Source: a virus. Taken from it: a stretch of 29,909 nucleotides of DNA. This document shows, one piece after another, positions 3,323 through 26,691 of the stretch. Position numbers and translations under genes: made by a program. Positions within the stretch are counted from its first letter, which is position 1, and every line of letters begins with the position of its first letter. The notes under the pieces are model-generated. The model had not been told where the DNA came from, made no database searches, and saw only the letters and a list, made by a program, of their open reading frames with translations. Where the stretch lies: positions 1-29,909 of IMG/VR virus record IMGVR_UViG_3300027849_000042; one strand, given 5' to 3'.

Positions 3323-3688
3323 ATGTCAGTAATTACAGGTACAGTAGCATTCGTTAATTTGTCAGAGCATGAAGTATACCTCGGCACCTCGACGGGGAAG
3401 TATTCGGTAGTCTTAACATTAGACGATGAAAACACAGCCAAAATGGAAGGTCAGGGTGTCAAGTTACGCACCTATGAAGGTAGCAAGCAACGTAAGTTTG
3501 CATCTAAGTTTGATGTACCAATTTATGAGCTTAACGGGGATGAATTTATGGGTAACGTCACACGCGGCTCAACGGTACGGGTGCAATATTCACTTGGTCA
3601 GGAGCATCCAGTACATGGCATCACGCCATACCTTGATAAGGTGCGCGTTGTTGAACTAGCAGCCTCCGCCACCGACGGTGACTTCTAG
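3323..3688 (+). CDS. Single-stranded DNA-binding protein, gp2.5-like
   Basis: Likely the replication SSB. The 121-residue product has an N-terminal beta-rich part in the style of an OB fold (GTVAFVNL, YSVVLTLDDE, GSTVRVQYSL, YLDKVRVVEL) and a short acidic C-terminal tail ending DGDF. A C-terminal acidic tail with a final Phe is how T7 gp2.5 contacts its polymerase and helicase. It is shorter than T7 gp2.5 (232 residues). It is the first gene after the strong promoter at 3144 and is followed by two hairpins rather than directly by the next gene, which may set its dose apart. The family is inferred from tail, size and position. Confidence 0.7.
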   Translation: MSVITGTVAFVNLSEHEVYLGTSTGKYSVVLTLDDENTAKMEGQGVKLRTYEGSKQRKFASKFDVPIYELNGDEFMGNVTRGSTVRVQYSLGQEHPVHGITPYLDKVRVVELAASATDGDF

Positions 3689-3700
3689 CACCTAAGCCAC

Positions 3701-3722
3701 AGGAGGCTGTATAAGGCCTCCT
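3701..3722 (+). terminator. Hairpin after SSB, possible weak terminator
   Basis: AGGAGGC (3701-3707) and GCCTCCT (3716-3722) form a 7-bp GC-rich stem with an 8-base loop just after the SSB stop. No run of T follows, so an intrinsic terminator is doubtful. It may instead stabilise the end of the SSB message or be a pause or processing site. Confidence 0.5.
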
Positions 3723-3731
3723 AAAGTTACC

Positions 3732-3762
3732 CCTAGTGTTGCTATTCCCCAGCGGCACTAGG
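3732..3762 (+). other. 12-bp RNA hairpin upstream of the surface-protein gene
   Basis: CCTAGTGTTGCT (3732-3743) pairs with AGCGGCACTAGG (3751-3762) along all 12 positions, two of them G-T wobbles, leaving the 7-base loop ATTCCCC. The wobbles mean the stem is stronger as + strand RNA than on the other strand. It ends 30 bases before the ATG of the next gene and has no T-tract, so it is better read as an mRNA structure than a terminator. Confidence 0.6.
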
Positions 3763-3792
3763 TACCTTAGAACGCAGTATAGGAACTTACAA

Positions 3793-4380
3793 ATGAATAA
3801 ATTTACTAAAGTATTTGCAGTTACAGCACTAGCAACATTAATAGCGAATCCAGTTTATGCAGACTTAGCCTCCGATGTGGCAGCCGTAACAAGCTACGCA
3901 CAAGCAAACCGCTCAGGTCTAGCAGGGAACTACGAGGCCATTAGCGTGAACTCTGCGTCAATAGCGGCATTAGCTGCCAGACCTTTACCAACTCAAGGCG
4001 AGCAGGGCGCTCAAGGTGCTGCAGGTGCTCAAGGTGCTCAAGGTGCTGCAGGTGCTCAAGGTGCTCAAGGTGCTGCAGGTGCTCAAGGCGAGCAGGGCGC
4101 TCAAGGTGCTGCAGGTTCTCAAGGTGCTGCAGGGTTAAACGCAATTAGTCAGACTGTACGTATAAACACCGAAGCCGCTAAAGGCGCAGCAACCACAAAC
4201 GCACTAGCAGCTACGCCTAATAATGGGATAGGTATCGGGGTGGGTTACTCAAATGGCAGCGAGGCTATTGCAATAGGCTTCAAATGGAAGCTAGTAAATA
4301 ATGGCATGTTTAGTGCGTCACTATCTACTAGTTCAAGCGGCTCAAGAACTGCTGGCGCTGGCTTTGGTTTTAAATTTTAA
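3793..4380 (+). CDS. Minimal trimeric autotransporter-like surface protein
   Basis: A 195-residue protein with the full layout of a small trimeric autotransporter adhesin. Residues 1-23 are a Sec signal peptide (basic MNKFTK start, hydrophobic core, cleavage after PVYA). Residues 24-68 form a short helical head. Residues 69-114 are an uninterrupted Gly-X-Y collagen-like stalk (about 15 triplets). Residues 115-140 are a helical linker. Residues about 141-195 match the YadA-type C-terminal anchor (GIGIGVGY, EAIAIGFKWKL, aromatic final residue F). It would trimerise into an outer-membrane beta-barrel and display the stalk outside the infected cell. An in-frame GTG at 3736 lies inside a hairpin and would bury the signal peptide, so ATG 3793 is preferred. 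Its role in infection is unknown; changing the cell surface (superinfection exclusion, aggregation) is inference. Confidence 0.8.
   Translation: MNKFTKVFAVTALATLIANPVYADLASDVAAVTSYAQANRSGLAGNYEAISVNSASIAALAARPLPTQGEQGAQGAAGAQGAQGAAGAQGAQGAAGAQGEQGAQGAAGSQGAAGLNAISQTVRINTEAAKGAATTNALAATPNNGIGIGVGYSNGSEAIAIGFKWKLVNNGMFSASLSTSSSGSRTAGAGFGFKF
4009..4125 (+). repeat. 27-bp tandem repeat encoding the collagen-like stalk
   Basis: Three adjoining 27-base units (4009-4035, 4036-4062, 4063-4089) are identical except for the last base of the third. A fourth copy at 4099-4125 differs at one base. Each encodes three Gly-X-Y triplets (AQGAAGAQG). A multiple of 9 bases keeps both the frame and the collagen phase when copies are gained or lost, so stalk length can vary between relatives. 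Confidence 0.85.
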
Positions 4381-4382
4381 AT

Positions 4383-4633
4383 AAGGAGCAAGACAATGAA
4401 TAAGAAAGAACAATTAGAGAAAGCGGTAGTAGATACTAAGGCTGCTTGTGATGCTGCTGATGCAGCTCTAGATGATGCTTTTGCTTCTGCTGTTGCTGAT
4501 GCTACTGATGCTGTTGTTGACCCTGCTTGGGAGGCTGTTTTTGCTGTTGTTGATGCTGCTTGGGATGCGGCTTTTGATGCTTGGGATAAAGCAAGGGATG
4601 AACTAGCAGAATACCTAAAGGAGCAAGACAATG
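4383..4633 (+). repeat. 16-bp direct repeats bracketing the Ala-rich gene
   Basis: AAGGAGCAAGACAATG occurs at 4383-4398 and again at 4618-4633, 235 bases apart. Each copy contains a Shine-Dalgarno sequence and an ATG start. The related Ala-rich gene at 1530 ends in the same AAGGAGCAA, followed there by a different start region. Recombination between the two copies would remove the gene cleanly and leave primase-helicase with an intact start. Confidence 0.85.
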
Positions 4634-4638
4634 GCTAA
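4396..4638 (+). CDS. Ala/Asp-rich low-complexity protein, paralogue of the 1530 gene
   Basis: An 80-residue acidic, mostly Ala, Asp and Val protein with Trp-Asp repeats (AAWDAAFDAWDKARDELAEYLKEQ region). It shares LEKAVVD and the C-terminal YLKEQ pattern with the protein at 1530-1760. Probably helical and soluble, of unknown function. Alanine is encoded mainly by GCT. The gene is bracketed by an identical 16-base sequence (AAGGAGCAAGACAATG) at 4383-4398 and 4618-4633. The first copy is its own ribosome binding site and start, and the second, formed by its YLKEQ codons, is the ribosome binding site and start of primase-helicase. This looks like insertion of a gene cassette that preserved downstream translation. 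Confidence 0.75.
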   Translation: MNKKEQLEKAVVDTKAACDAADAALDDAFASAVADATDAVVDPAWEAVFAVVDAAWDAAFDAWDKARDELAEYLKEQDNG

Positions 4639-6510: not shown

Positions 6511-8235
6511 ATGACTAGGTTAATATTCGACATTGAAACAGACGGCCTCGCGCCAACACAAGTATGGGTCATTGTCACCAAGGATATTGACTCTGGTGCT
6601 GTAACCACATACGTTAAGGGCCAATGGGACGCCTTTAACAAAGCAATCAACGAAGCAGGGGAGGTAATAGGACATAATATTATTGGCTACGATATACCAG
6701 CGTGTGAGCGTCTATTAGGTACTGACTTTAGCGGTCTAAAGATCACAGACACATTGGTTATGTCTAGACTAGCAAACCCACAAAGGGACGGACATTCACT
6801 AGCATATTGGGGAGAACAACTTGGCTATCCTAAAGGAACTTATGAGGATTGGACGCAGTATACACCTGAAATGGTGGAGTATTGTAAGCAAGACGTTAGC
6901 GTTAATGAACACGTATACAAAGCACTCGTATCCGAGCTTGATAGTTTTGGAAACGAAAGCAGCATACTTGAGCATGGCGTACAAAATATTATACAAAAAC
7001 AAATACGGAACGGCTGGCTTTTAGACCAACCTAAGGCTAGGGACTTAGTGGCAAAGCTTAAAGAAGAGTCTTACAACCTAGAGGAGGAGGTGCAGAGAGT
7101 CTTTAAGCCGCTACCTACATTCATTAAGGAGGTCACACCTAAGATCAAGAAGGACGGAAGCACAAGTATAGTAGGCCTTAAGTTCTTAGGTGACCATTGG
7201 ACTACTGTAGGTGGCCCATTCAGTCGTATTGACTGGCCTGTCTTTAACTTAGGTTCACGACAGCAGATAGGTAGGTATCTGAAACACTTTGGCTGGCGTC
7301 CACAGACGTTTACAGAGACAGGACACGCGATAGTATCAGAAGAGATACTTAAGGCCGTGAAGGGCATCCCTGAGGCCTCCTTGATAGCTTCTTATCTATT
7401 GGTAGGCAAGCGTATTGCTCAAGTGTCTAGTTGGCTTGAAGCTGTAGACCCTAAGACGGGAAGAGTCCACGGTTACGTTAATACTAATGGCGCAGTCACT
7501 GGGAGGATGACGCACAGTAAGCCTAACTTAGCTCAAGTGCCCTCAAGGAATAGCCTGTATGGGCCTGAGTGTAGAGCATGTTGGATTGTACCCAAGGGCT
7601 ACAAGCTCGTAGGTATAGACGCTAGTGGTCTTGAGTTACGTATGTTAGCTCATTACATGAATGACACTGAGTATACTAATACTATACTTACAGGTGACAT
7701 CCATACTGCTAACCAAATGGCGGCAGGCCTTGAGACACGTAACCAAGCTAAGACGTTTATCTATGCCTACTTATATGGCGCAGGTGACGAGAAGATAGGT
7801 TCAATTGCAGGCGGTGGACGTGCTAAAGGCAAGAAGCTTAAAGAAGCTTTCCTTAAGGCTACTCCAGCACTTGCAGAGCTTAAGGAGAACGTTGCACAGT
7901 CAGCAGCTAAGGGCTACATAACAGGCTTAGATGGACGTAAGGTGTTCATCAGGTCAGAACATGCGGCACTTAACTCGCTACTACAGTCAGCAGGTGCTTT
8001 AGTTATGAAGCAGGCTTTGGTTATCTTAGATGACTATGCGACACGATGGGGCTTAGACTACAAGTTCATTGGCAACATACACGATGAATTTCAGGTAGAA
8101 GTAAAGGAAAGTCAGGCTGCAAGGTTTGGCTCATTGGCGGCAAGCTGTATAGAAGCCGCAGGTAACCATTTTAAACTTAGGTGCCCTTTGGCAGGTGAGT
8201 TTAATATAGGCAACAATTGGGCAGAAACCCACTAG
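6511..8235 (+). CDS. DNA polymerase, family A, with 3'-5' exonuclease
   Basis: Replicative polymerase of the T7 gp5 type. Exonuclease motifs: FDIET (D7, E9), HNIIGYD (N56 to D61) and Y124-x3-D128. Polymerase motif A is DASGLELR (D370, E375). Motif B is RNQAKTFIYAYLYG (R410, K414, Y418). Motif C is HDE (524-526). At 574 residues it is shorter than T7 gp5 (704), which implies trimmed fingers and thumb regions or loss of the thioredoxin-binding insert. Tyr at 418 matches T7 Y526 and E. coli PolI F762, a position that sets sugar selectivity. It starts two bases after the previous stop. The host clamp or processivity factor, if any, is not visible. Confidence 0.95.
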   Translation: MTRLIFDIETDGLAPTQVWVIVTKDIDSGAVTTYVKGQWDAFNKAINEAGEVIGHNIIGYDIPACERLLGTDFSGLKITDTLVMSRLANPQRDGHSLAYWGEQLGYPKGTYEDWTQYTPEMVEYCKQDVSVNEHVYKALVSELDSFGNESSILEHGVQNIIQKQIRNGWLLDQPKARDLVAKLKEESYNLEEEVQRVFKPLPTFIKEVTPKIKKDGSTSIVGLKFLGDHWTTVGGPFSRIDWPVFNLGSRQQIGRYLKHFGWRPQTFTETGHAIVSEEILKAVKGIPEASLIASYLLVGKRIAQVSSWLEAVDPKTGRVHGYVNTNGAVTGRMTHSKPNLAQVPSRNSLYGPECRACWIVPKGYKLVGIDASGLELRMLAHYMNDTEYTNTILTGDIHTANQMAAGLETRNQAKTFIYAYLYGAGDEKIGSIAGGGRAKGKKLKEAFLKATPALAELKENVAQSAAKGYITGLDGRKVFIRSEHAALNSLLQSAGALVMKQALVILDDYATRWGLDYKFIGNIHDEFQVEVKESQAARFGSLAASCIEAAGNHFKLRCPLAGEFNIGNNWAETH

Positions 8236-8243
8236 GAGAAGTT

Positions 8244-8723
8244 ATGAAGACTATCGTAAAACAAGCGCAGTACATGAAACAATGGTACATGGATAACAAA
8301 GAACGTAAAGAGGGGCAGTACAAAGTAAACAATAAGAACCGTATGTACGTAGATGGTAAGTATGTACCACAGTCTCATCCATTGTGGAAAGCAGGTACCT
8401 ATACTTCATTTAACGATGCAGCGTTTAGTTCCTTTACTAACTACAACAGAACCACTAAAGGTGATGTTTACTTAATTACTAATGCGGCTTGGCCTGAGTG
8501 GGTTAAGGTAGGTAAAGCAGGGGATGCGGCAGACCGCTTGAAGGGCTACCAAACAAGTGACCCCTTTAGAGCTTACGAGCTACACCATAGTGTCGTAACT
8601 GAGAACCGACACACAGCGGAACTTAAGGCACATAAGGCACTTGAGGCCTTGAGTAAAGATAGAAAGAATGAGTGGTTTAAGGTTGACCTAACGATAGCAG
8701 TGAACTGCATTGAGGCGCTATGA
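8244..8723 (+). CDS. GIY-YIG-like nuclease, T5 orf172/MUG113 type
   Basis: A 159-residue protein whose C-terminal half carries a GIY-YIG-like core: VYLI (75-78), VKVG (87-90), the conserved Arg in ADRLKGYQTS (R98), an H-x-x-E/K helix (HTAELKAHKALE) and NEWF (142-145), the usual end of the T5 orf172 domain. The basic, Tyr-rich N-terminal part (residues 1-50) may bind DNA. ATG 8244 follows AGGAGAAG and is preferred to an upstream start at 8217 inside the polymerase gene. It lies between polymerase and exonuclease, so it may act in recombination or repair, or as a free-standing homing-type nuclease. Its stop overlaps the exonuclease start (ATGA). Confidence 0.8.
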   Translation: MKTIVKQAQYMKQWYMDNKERKEGQYKVNNKNRMYVDGKYVPQSHPLWKAGTYTSFNDAAFSSFTNYNRTTKGDVYLITNAAWPEWVKVGKAGDAADRLKGYQTSDPFRAYELHHSVVTENRHTAELKAHKALEALSKDRKNEWFKVDLTIAVNCIEAL

Positions 8724-11098: not shown

Positions 11099-11332
11099 AT
11101 GAAAATTAAATTAAATGAAGTACAAGTAGAACAGGTAGGTGTAACGTGTTTAGACCAACTACACGCAGACATTAAGGCAGAGCTAACACAGCACTCCATT
11201 GAGTCTTACCTAGATGCGGAAGACTACGTAGCTATGTTACGCACTGTAGTAAGTATTGAAGTGATAATGAAGGAACTAATGCACCCTGATATTTATTTTA
11301 TTTGGAAGCTTGAGAATGGAGTAAACTTATAA
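11099..11332 (+). CDS. Hypothetical protein upstream of RNR, 77 aa
   Basis: Ribosome binding site AGAGAGAAG, then ATG 11099. The product is acidic and mainly helical (VQVEQVGVTCLDQLHADIKAEL, SYLDAEDYVAMLRTVVSIEVIMKELM), with one cysteine and no membrane segment. Its stop overlaps the RNR start (TAATG at 11330-11334), so the two are translationally coupled. It might partner with or regulate the reductase, but that rests on position only. Confidence 0.7.
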   Translation: MKIKLNEVQVEQVGVTCLDQLHADIKAELTQHSIESYLDAEDYVAMLRTVVSIEVIMKELMHPDIYFIWKLENGVNL

Positions 11333-13230
11333 TGAATTTTCCCACGGACTACCAAGCGTTTATTCATACGTCACGCTACGCTAAGTGGCTAGACAAAGAG
11401 AACCGTAGAGAAAGCTGGAGTGAAACAGTAGACCGCTACATTAGCAACCTAGTGGCACCTAAGATAGACGACACTAAAACAGTTAAGATGATACGTGAAG
11501 CAATCCTTAACCTAGACACTATGCCAAGCATGAGAGCTATGATGTCAGCAGGTAAAGCCTTTGACCGTGATAACGTAGCTGGCTATAATTGTTCATACTT
11601 ACCAGTGGATGACATACGCTCATTTGACGAAGCCATGTTCATCCTATTGTGTGGTACAGGCGTAGGCTTCAGTGTAGAGCGACAGAGTGTGTCTAAGCTG
11701 CCTGAGGTGCCCAACGAGCTTACTGACACTGACGAAGTGATAAAGGTAGCCGATAGTAAGGAGGGATGGGCTAAGGCGCTTAGACGCTTAATTATGACCC
11801 TTTACGCAGGTGACATACCTCAGTGGGACGTATCGGGCGTTAGACCAGCAGGAGCTAAACTTAAGACCTTTGGTGGTCGTGCCTCAGGGCCAGCACCTTT
11901 GATTGACTTGTTTAACTTTGTAATTGAAACCTTTAAGGCAGCTAAGGGCGAGAAGTTAACTAGCCTACAGTGTCATGACATTATGTGTAAGATAGGCGAA
12001 GTAGTAGTTGTAGGGGGCGTAAGGCGTTCAGCAATGATAAGCTTAAGTAACCTAAGTGATGACCGTATGCGCCATGCTAAGTCAGGTGCCTATTGGGAGC
12101 AGAATGCACAGCGTAACCTAGCTAACAACAGTGTCGCCTATACTACGAAGCCTGATGCTACTGCATTCATGCGCGAGTGGCTAAGTCTAGTAGAGAGTGG
12201 CACAGGTGAGCGTGGTATCTTTAACCGCGTAGCTAGTCAGAAGCAAGCAGCTAAGAATGGTCGTAGAGATGCAAGCTATGAGTTTGGGACTAACCCATGT
12301 AGCGAGATCATATTACGACCCTATCAGTTCTGCAACTTAAGTGAAGTAGTGGTACGAGCTACAGACACTTTAGAAGACTTAGAGCGTAAGGTCATTGTGG
12401 CGACTATTATTGGTACACTACAGTCAACCTACACTAAGTTTCCTTACTTACGTAAGGCTTGGAATAATAACACTGAAGAGGAACGTTTGTTAGGTGTGAG
12501 TATGACAGGTATCATGGATAACCCATTGACTACCTCAGCTAACGAAAGTCTACCTGAGATGCTTGAGCATCTACGTAAAGTATCTGTAGAAACTAATGCA
12601 GTGTGGGCTGCTAAGTTAGGTGTAGCTGTGAGTACCGCAATCACAGCAGTCAAGCCTAGTGGCACAGTGTCACAGCTTGTTGATAGTGCTTCAGGTATAC
12701 ACGCTAGGCATAGTGCGTATTATATCCGTACAGTGCGCTCAGATGTTAAAGACCCTTTGACGCAGTTCATGAAGGATAAGGGAGTACCTTGGGAAGCTTG
12801 TGTGCATAAGCCAGATACTACAGTAGTGTTTAGCTTTCCACAGAAGTCACCTGAGAATGCAGTGTTAACTGAGAATACACCAGCACTTGAGCAGCTTGAG
12901 ACTTGGTTAATGTACCAACGTCACTGGTGTGAGCATAAACCTTCGGTCACTATTAATGTGCTTAAGGATGAGTGGATGGAAGTAGGTGCATTTGTATATA
13001 AGAACTTTGATGAGATGAGTGGCGTTAGCTTCTTACCTTACAACGAACATATCTACCAGCAAGCACCTTATCAAGACTGCACTAAGGAAGTTTATGAGGA
13101 CTTCTTAAGTAAGATGCCTGATGCTATTGAGTGGGCAGGTTTAGCTGCTTATGAAATGGAGGACACCACAGTAGGGTCACAGACGTTTGCATGTAGTGGA
13201 GGCTCATGTGAAATAGTTGACTTAGTTTAG
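11332..13230 (+). CDS. nrdJ: Class II (adenosylcobalamin-dependent) ribonucleotide reductase, monomeric type
   Basis: Converts ribonucleotides to deoxyribonucleotides for phage DNA synthesis. At 632 residues it fits the compact monomeric class II type related to the Lactobacillus leichmannii enzyme. Key residues: C87 (YNCSYL) and C334 (FCNLS) as the active-site redox pair; N321, C323 and E325 in NPCSEI, with C323 as the thiyl radical; and the C-terminal pair C621/C626 (CSGGSC) that accepts electrons from glutaredoxin. There is no separate radical-generating subunit gene, as expected when adenosylcobalamin provides the radical. The host must therefore make or import B12. Marine podoviruses often carry this class. 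It is the last gene before the bidirectional terminator. Confidence 0.92.
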   Translation: MNFPTDYQAFIHTSRYAKWLDKENRRESWSETVDRYISNLVAPKIDDTKTVKMIREAILNLDTMPSMRAMMSAGKAFDRDNVAGYNCSYLPVDDIRSFDEAMFILLCGTGVGFSVERQSVSKLPEVPNELTDTDEVIKVADSKEGWAKALRRLIMTLYAGDIPQWDVSGVRPAGAKLKTFGGRASGPAPLIDLFNFVIETFKAAKGEKLTSLQCHDIMCKIGEVVVVGGVRRSAMISLSNLSDDRMRHAKSGAYWEQNAQRNLANNSVAYTTKPDATAFMREWLSLVESGTGERGIFNRVASQKQAAKNGRRDASYEFGTNPCSEIILRPYQFCNLSEVVVRATDTLEDLERKVIVATIIGTLQSTYTKFPYLRKAWNNNTEEERLLGVSMTGIMDNPLTTSANESLPEMLEHLRKVSVETNAVWAAKLGVAVSTAITAVKPSGTVSQLVDSASGIHARHSAYYIRTVRSDVKDPLTQFMKDKGVPWEACVHKPDTTVVFSFPQKSPENAVLTENTPALEQLETWLMYQRHWCEHKPSVTINVLKDEWMEVGAFVYKNFDEMSGVSFLPYNEHIYQQAPYQDCTKEVYEDFLSKMPDAIEWAGLAAYEMEDTTVGSQTFACSGGSCEIVDLV

Positions 13231-25731: not shown

Positions 25732-26691
25732 TTAACCGTTAACTGCCATGATGAAACCAGTTTCAGGACGCAACACCTGAGTACCGTACAAACGGTCAGC
25801 AGTGTACAAGGTTCCTAGGAATTCTTGCTTGTACTGTGTTTGCGAGCGGATGCCCTGTTGCTCTGCGAGAACCATAGTGTCTTTATGACCCAATAATGCA
25901 CCACGAATGACACCACCAGCGGTAGCAGAGTTCTCAGCGGCAGTCTCAAGAGTAGGACAGTTACTAGACACATAGATGTCCACACCGTACAACTCACCGA
26001 TCTTACCGTTCATAACACCTTGTCCATTAACGAAGTCAGAGCTTACGTAGCGATCAATACCCATGATAGCATTACGCATAGCAGGTGGGATAACTAAGAA
26101 GCGTCCATCCATAGGGGTGTCAGCGTCATCCATCTTCTGAACCATGTTACGTAGGAAAGCGTCAGTAAACACGTCAGCAGGAACAACGGTGTTATCTGCG
26201 TAAGCAGTAGTTACACCAGCAGCAGTCTGGTAGAAAGAACCAGAACCAGTCCATACAGAGCCGTCACCGTTACCGAAAGACTTACCTAAGGTAAACATAT
26301 CGTCATCTACTTGCTTACCTAGGGCATAGCCAGCATCACCAGTATAGAACTGACGTAGGGAAGCAAGAGCTTGTACGTTAGTAATATCTTCGATCATACG
26401 TGAGTATTCAAAGTGCTTGTTAATAGTCACTAGAACTTCTGACTCAGTAGAATTCTGAATAGTAACTGCTGTGTTCTCTGCCTTAGCAGTAGCAACGCCA
26501 CGAGTAGGTGCAGGGATATGAATTGTATCACCCTTCTTACCTGACATGCTAATTTTCTTAGTTAGTGGAGCTAGTACAAGGTTTTTCTCGTAAGCTGCAA
26601 TTACTTCGTCAGACCAAATTTCTGGAATGAATGTAGCCGCAGAAGTGTTGTCAACCATGCCGCCTACAGCGGGATATACTGAAGTAGTCAT
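25732..26691 (-). CDS. Major capsid protein, 319 aa
   Basis: Recognised by position (directly after scaffold, before a strong terminator), length and sequence pattern. The N terminus (VYPAVGGMVDNTSAATFIPEIWSDEVIAAYEKNLVLAPLTKK) and the GKKGDTIHIPAPTRG segment are typical of HK97-fold capsid proteins of marine podoviruses. The middle has a long helix-like part with RMIEDITNVQALASLRQFY. The C-terminal part includes YGVDIYVSSNCPT and ends YGTQVLRPETGFIMAVNG. RBS AGAGAAA precedes ATG. No frameshifted longer form is suggested, since a terminator follows soon after the stop. Confidence 0.9.
   Translation of the reverse strand: MTTSVYPAVGGMVDNTSAATFIPEIWSDEVIAAYEKNLVLAPLTKKISMSGKKGDTIHIPAPTRGVATAKAENTAVTIQNSTESEVLVTINKHFEYSRMIEDITNVQALASLRQFYTGDAGYALGKQVDDDMFTLGKSFGNGDGSVWTGSGSFYQTAAGVTTAYADNTVVPADVFTDAFLRNMVQKMDDADTPMDGRFLVIPPAMRNAIMGIDRYVSSDFVNGQGVMNGKIGELYGVDIYVSSNCPTLETAAENSATAGGVIRGALLGHKDTMVLAEQQGIRSQTQYKQEFLGTLYTADRLYGTQVLRPETGFIMAVNG

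Follow-up and report, generated by a model that had tools for sequence, protein, structure and literature searches.

A marine phage gene for a predicted collagen-stalked, YadA-type trimeric autotransporter

Introduction

The closest described counterparts of the gene considered here are found in the Kuravirus phiEco32, whose gp119 is annotated as an 'agglutinating adhesin', and in its close relative EcM-vB1, where the product is named a 'YadA-like protein'. Both proteins consist of a signal peptide, a collagen-like stalk (Pfam PF01391), a helix, and a YadA anchor (Pfam PF03895), and both genes lie among small accessory genes of a lytic podovirus. The N4-like Salmonella phages FSL SP-058, SP-076, and vB_SalP_TR2 carry an 'agglutinating adhesin' (phrog_26246); in SP-058 and TR2 it has the same domain order, and its gene adjoins the dUTPase gene and is far from the tail genes. 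The position beside dUTPase, not near the tail genes, was reported for SP-058 and SP-076 in 2013 (PMC3728262), and a 2023 study that detected PF03895 in 19 N4-like genomes classed it as virulence-associated (PMC10654107). The prophage Eib proteins are older than these reports on lytic-phage genes, and EibD has been called phage-encoded (PMC6024878).

Several other phages encode proteins of this kind. LMKPLIBG_00026 of Erwinia phage RF1 combines a YadA anchor with collagen repeats, and its gene is located just downstream of that of DNA polymerase I. The adhesin gp046 of Erwinia phage S6 (about 380 aa) has a YadA anchor and is encoded next to dUTPase, while short anchor proteins are encoded by Yersinia phage phiR1-RT (g139, 122 aa) and Proteus phage P59 (194 aa). 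A search of PubMed Central found no functional experiment on the YadA protein of any lytic phage.

Here we describe a gene with the architecture of phiEco32 gp119 in a 29.9-kb marine phage sequence, IMG/VR record IMGVR_UViG_3300027849_000042. The whole stretch of 29,909 nucleotides that was analysed is referred to below as the window.

Results and Discussion

Domain architecture and collagen-like stalk

The gene is listed with its parts in Table 1. A simple Sec signal-peptide rule, used instead of a trained predictor, selected its product as the only one among the 55 ATG ORFs in the window; the N-terminus reads MNKFTK-VFAVTALATLIA-NPVYA, followed by D after the predicted cleavage. No known head domain was recognised by Pfam in the 45-residue tip. 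The Pfam Collagen profile matched residues 68–114 (E 4e-9, 36.5 bits versus a curated cut-off of 27.2), and the Gly-X-Y run is unbroken over residues 69–116, in line with the 15 or so triplets counted in an earlier, sequence-only reading of this DNA. The same reading had described a 195-residue protein with a Sec signal peptide, a helical linker, a four-strand YadA anchor, and an aromatic C-terminal residue (Phe195), and the present analysis bore out all of these features.

Table 1. Features of the predicted autotransporter gene and its leader; L078 is a related IMG/VR locus described in the text.
Feature	Position	Strand	Remarks
Two strong hairpins, in the leader that separates the ORF from the SSB-like gene	3701..3762	+	fold z -3.4; conserved in L078; no T run
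Probable ribosome binding site, AGGA	3781..3784	+	8 bases 5' of the ATG; from sequence
Whole ORF, predicted collagen-stalked YadA-type trimeric autotransporter	3793..4380, stop codon included	+	195 aa, ATG start
Predicted Sec signal peptide, residues 1-23, probable cleavage VYA/D	3793..3861	+	rule-based
Mature N-terminal tip, residues 24-68	3862..3996	+	no globular head recognised
Collagen-like stalk, 16 Gly-X-Y triplets	3997..4140	+	Pfam PF01391
Helical linker, residues 117-144, would fill the barrel pore	4141..4224	+	helical in the AlphaFold2 model (model residues 2-32)
YadA-type anchor of four beta strands ending in Phe, residues 145-195	4225..4377	+	PF03895; model resembles the anchors of Hia, AtaA, and YadA

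The triplets are mostly GAQ and GAA, and the DNA of the stalk is a 9/18/27-bp tandem repeat. Since proline is absent from the repeats, a stable triple helix is uncertain and would be likely only if the anchor and the flanking helices clamp the chains together. The virion half of the genome contains another collagen-like gene, predicted to encode a tail fibre protein (Pfam PF01391; 18196-18915, - strand) without an anchor, which is a possible source of the collagen-like repeats.

Identification of the anchor

The YadA_anchor profile PF03895, which the sequence-only reading had proposed as a check, aligned to residues 145–195 over positions 10–60 of its 60 positions (E 2.9e-8, 34.1 bits versus a cut-off of 22.7), and a scan of the whole record with this profile returned no other ORF. 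When seven other phage anchors, without that of the window, were used to build an HMM, the window protein scored 23.3 bits, and none of 4000 shufflings of its C-terminus scored above 14.5 bits; therefore, the match is not an artefact of glycine composition.

A monomeric AlphaFold2 model of the anchor, calculated from an alignment with 14 phage homologues taken from IMG/VR, consisted of one long helix and four strands, with a pLDDT of 89.3; a single-sequence model was set aside (pLDDT 38). The top five Foldseek matches of this model in the PDB were all anchors of trimeric autotransporters (Hia, AtaA, and YadA). VIA-align 2 gave the same five entries Z scores of 9.4–11.2 over 73–85 residues, including 11.2 for Hia (2gr7) and 9.4 for YadA (2lme), and the next entry scored 6.7. 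An alignment profile of the anchor likewise found YadA (2lme, E 4e-14) in the PDB, and a phmmer search of the PDB with the window anchor gave no match. In a comparison with predicted structures of viral proteins, phage proteins matched best, several of which are named trimeric autotransporter anchors, and UniProt labels phage entries as trimeric-autotransporter anchor proteins.

Judging by family and predicted fold, the product is very probably an outer-membrane trimeric autotransporter. Its export, trimerisation, insertion by BAM, and location on the outside of the cell would be expected for a member of this family.

Searches for homologues and a donor

Tblastn searches of phages with the full protein or the anchor, and of plasmids with the full protein, found nothing, whereas in the phage collection a self-written family-consensus anchor retrieved 34 annotated records and the SP-058 anchor retrieved 76. 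Therefore, the window anchor appears to be too divergent, and its composition too biased, for direct searches. The anchor-positive phage records included Kuravirus, N4-like Schitoviridae, Ackermannviridae, T4-like and jumbo phages, and Eib prophages; the search with the SP-058 anchor recovered the E. coli prophage proteins EibA, EibC, and EibD (phages P-EibA, C, and D).

Scanning IMG/VR with the window anchor or the consensus anchor also gave no matches, and with the full protein the only matches there were collagen relatives. PF03895 was detected in none of 46 IMG/VR records with such collagen relatives that were scanned, nor in four primase relatives scanned alongside. No bacterial donor was found: in the one scan of genome contigs, the sole match was to collagen, in a Bacillota MAG.

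Genomic context and the variable slot

The genome is divided into two halves of opposite orientation. The + strand half carries genes for an SSB-like protein, a primase-helicase, a family A DNA polymerase, a 5'-3' exonuclease, an endolysin, and a ribonucleotide reductase, while the capsid and tail genes occupy the - strand from 13.3 kb on, with the major capsid protein gene at 25732-26691. The ribonucleotide reductase gene (11332-13230) is related to adenosylcobalamin-dependent enzymes, matching TIGR02505 below its cut-off, and a T5orf172 / MUG113 (GIY-YIG-like) protein is encoded at 8217-8723, between the DNA polymerase and exonuclease genes.

The autotransporter gene is located between the SSB-like gene and the primase-helicase gene, on the replication strand and opposite to the virion genes, which agrees with the earlier placement next to SSB and away from the virion genes. 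The SSB-like assignment of the neighbour (3323-3688) is based on a weak match to PHROG 112 (E 1.5e-4) and on its equivalent in Pelagibacter phage HTVC103P, annotated as an ssDNA-binding protein. By strand and position, the gene is probably expressed together with the replication genes; promoter and terminator scans gave matches at chance level only.

The nearest named relatives of the primase, with about 37% identity, belong to Pelagibacter phages HTVC103P, 104P, and 115P, and in HTVC103P the genes for the ssDNA-binding protein and the primase adjoin, with no anchor gene between them. The primase is common to 80 IMG/VR loci, and PF03895 was found in none of the 50 related records scanned out of these. 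In most relatives with a recognised SSB-like gene, the gap between SSB and primase is only about 84–144 bases, while other relatives hold different inserts. The closest relative, the locus L078, has a primase 98% identical to that of the window, and its slot holds an unrelated gene of 170 aa; the alignment with L078 stops near the start codon of the autotransporter gene and restarts just before the next gene. Since both flanks of the gene align to this one relative, an assembly chimera was ruled out. The absence of PF03895 from the 50 relatives and the unrelated gene in the slot of L078 mark the autotransporter gene as an accessory gene that was swapped in recently, by a cassette exchange.

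In some relatives, the slot holds other genes whose products are directed to the envelope. A lipoprotein-like ORF of 57 aa lies about 1.0 kb before the primase gene in L115, L116, and L118, and a 164-aa cell-wall-hydrolase-like protein is encoded about 0.5 kb before it in L137 and L139. The window also contains genes for two related small Ala/Asp-rich proteins (1530-1760 and 4396-4638), containing LEKAVVD, ending in YLKEQ, and having imperfect short repeats in mid-protein; another version of this protein is present in the slot of L078.

Possible function

In an infected Gram-negative cell, the gene would yield a small trimeric autotransporter, the chains of which would be exported by Sec and inserted by BAM, three chains forming a single 12-stranded barrel. 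The collagen-like stalk and the short tip could then project roughly 14 nm or more beyond the outer membrane. Such a gene would be an accessory gene of a lytic-type phage, expressed from the replication strand, with a product that stays outside the virion; the altered surface of the infected cell could prevent further phages or released progeny from adsorbing. Blocking of further adsorption is a guess, which we tentatively place above adhesion or clumping. In favour of this overall reading count the anchor family and fold, a predicted signal peptide shared by no other ORF of the window, and the location on one strand with the primase, DNA polymerase, and nuclease genes. In unrelated phages, such genes lie apart from those of the virion, beside dUTPase in SP-058, TR2, and S6 and beside DNA polymerase in RF1, and the variable slot sometimes houses other envelope-directed genes. 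Against it count the presence of the gene in only one record of this phage lineage, the proline-free stalk, and the annotation of a homologue in Yersinia phage fHe-Yen8-01 as a particle-associated receptor-binding protein. Moreover, nothing in the window sequence points to a masked receptor, since the protein has no globular head.

Alternatively, the bristle could bind infected cells to one another, to uninfected neighbours, or to particles; progeny would then come upon new hosts, or the cells would remain joined until they lyse. The relatives that carry such an anchor in bacteria and prophages, including the Eib proteins recovered in the same anchor search, are adhesins. On the other hand, the tip comprises just 45 residues without a known head domain, and if cells clumped before lysing, progeny would meet infected hosts as well; we regard this role as rather unlikely, although it is the main rival. 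The missing head domain, together with relatives as short as the phiR1-RT protein of about 120 aa, weakly favours a bristle or a general change of the surface over a specific adhesin. Very short members with hardly any passenger, as well as the hydrolase-like gene occupying the same slot in L137 and L139, would also suit an envelope stressor, many short anchors loading BAM or weakening the outer membrane and thereby aiding lysis or blocking the insertion of host proteins. However, such an effect would not need the stalks that are conserved in several phages, and we consider it decidedly improbable.

PHROGs places relatives under 'tail', and cyanophage 'YadA domain' proteins occur in virions (PMC9146016). 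The YadA-like fold could serve trimerisation of a virion or tail-fibre component, as the particle-associated annotation in fHe-Yen8-01 would also suggest. That association may be genuine, or membrane debris may account for it, and phage preparations can contain contaminating outer-membrane fragments. The signal peptide and the full membrane anchor with its C-terminal Phe, the location in the replication region on the strand opposite to the virion genes, the absence of the gene from relatives, and the presence of the phage's own collagen-like tail fibre without an anchor make a virion role improbable. It is about as improbable that the gene was acquired by chance from a host and has no function for the phage: although a single record of the lineage carries it, the ORF is intact, with its signal peptide and anchor, and such genes recur in unrelated lytic phages. 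The parallel cases, several of them in lytic phages and without virion-gene neighbours, suggest a function within the lytic cycle at the outer membrane.

Comparison with known systems

Sequence, fold, and gene position give good support to the central claim of the sequence-only reading, a trimeric autotransporter that is encoded by the phage outside its set of virion genes, anchored in the outer membrane, and provided with a collagen-like stalk, while the functions that this reading named (receptor masking, progeny capture, and clumping) are guesses. Its further suggestion of an undescribed system does not hold, since the same architecture is annotated in phiEco32, FSL SP-058, TR2, and, with an added N-terminal segment, RF1; such lytic-phage genes already figure in the 2013 and 2023 papers, and UniProt names phage entries accordingly.

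All seven phage proteins analysed with Pfam have the anchor, which in five of them (phiEco32 gp119, EcM-vB1, SP-058, TR2, and RF1) is accompanied by collagen repeats and a signal-like N-terminus. The order of signal peptide, collagen stalk, helix, and anchor was found in the first four. The phiEco32 and EcM-vB1 proteins differ from that of the window in their charged GKD/GEK triplets and enterobacterial hosts, and phiEco32 also in a Cys-containing tip and an anchor about 26% identical to that of the window. The SP-058 and TR2 proteins exceed that of the window in length, at about 325 aa, and have as many as 44 triplets and a small domain at the N-terminus, the RF1 protein (346 aa) has a long additional segment before the collagen repeats, and phiR1-RT g139 lacks a collagen run. 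The Eib proteins share the YadA-type anchor but belong to temperate phages, carry an immunoglobulin-binding passenger, and are expressed by lysogens. Bacterial YadA, Hia, and AtaA have the same anchor fold but are adhesins with large passenger domains.

Phage YadA-anchor genes are currently filed as virulence genes or tail proteins. It is possible, though doubtful, that short collagen-stalked trimeric autotransporters are a recurring device of lytic phages, acquired independently and remodelling the outside of the doomed cell mainly against further adsorption, and that distant marine relatives of HTVC103P share this device. The interest of the window gene lies in the recurrence of its kind across unrelated lytic phages and hence in a functional question that is directly testable, since phiEco32 and its relatives infect E. 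coli. With its signal peptide, collagen-like stalk, helix, and YadA anchor arranged as in phiEco32 gp119, the window adds a new, marine lineage to this known kind of phage gene.
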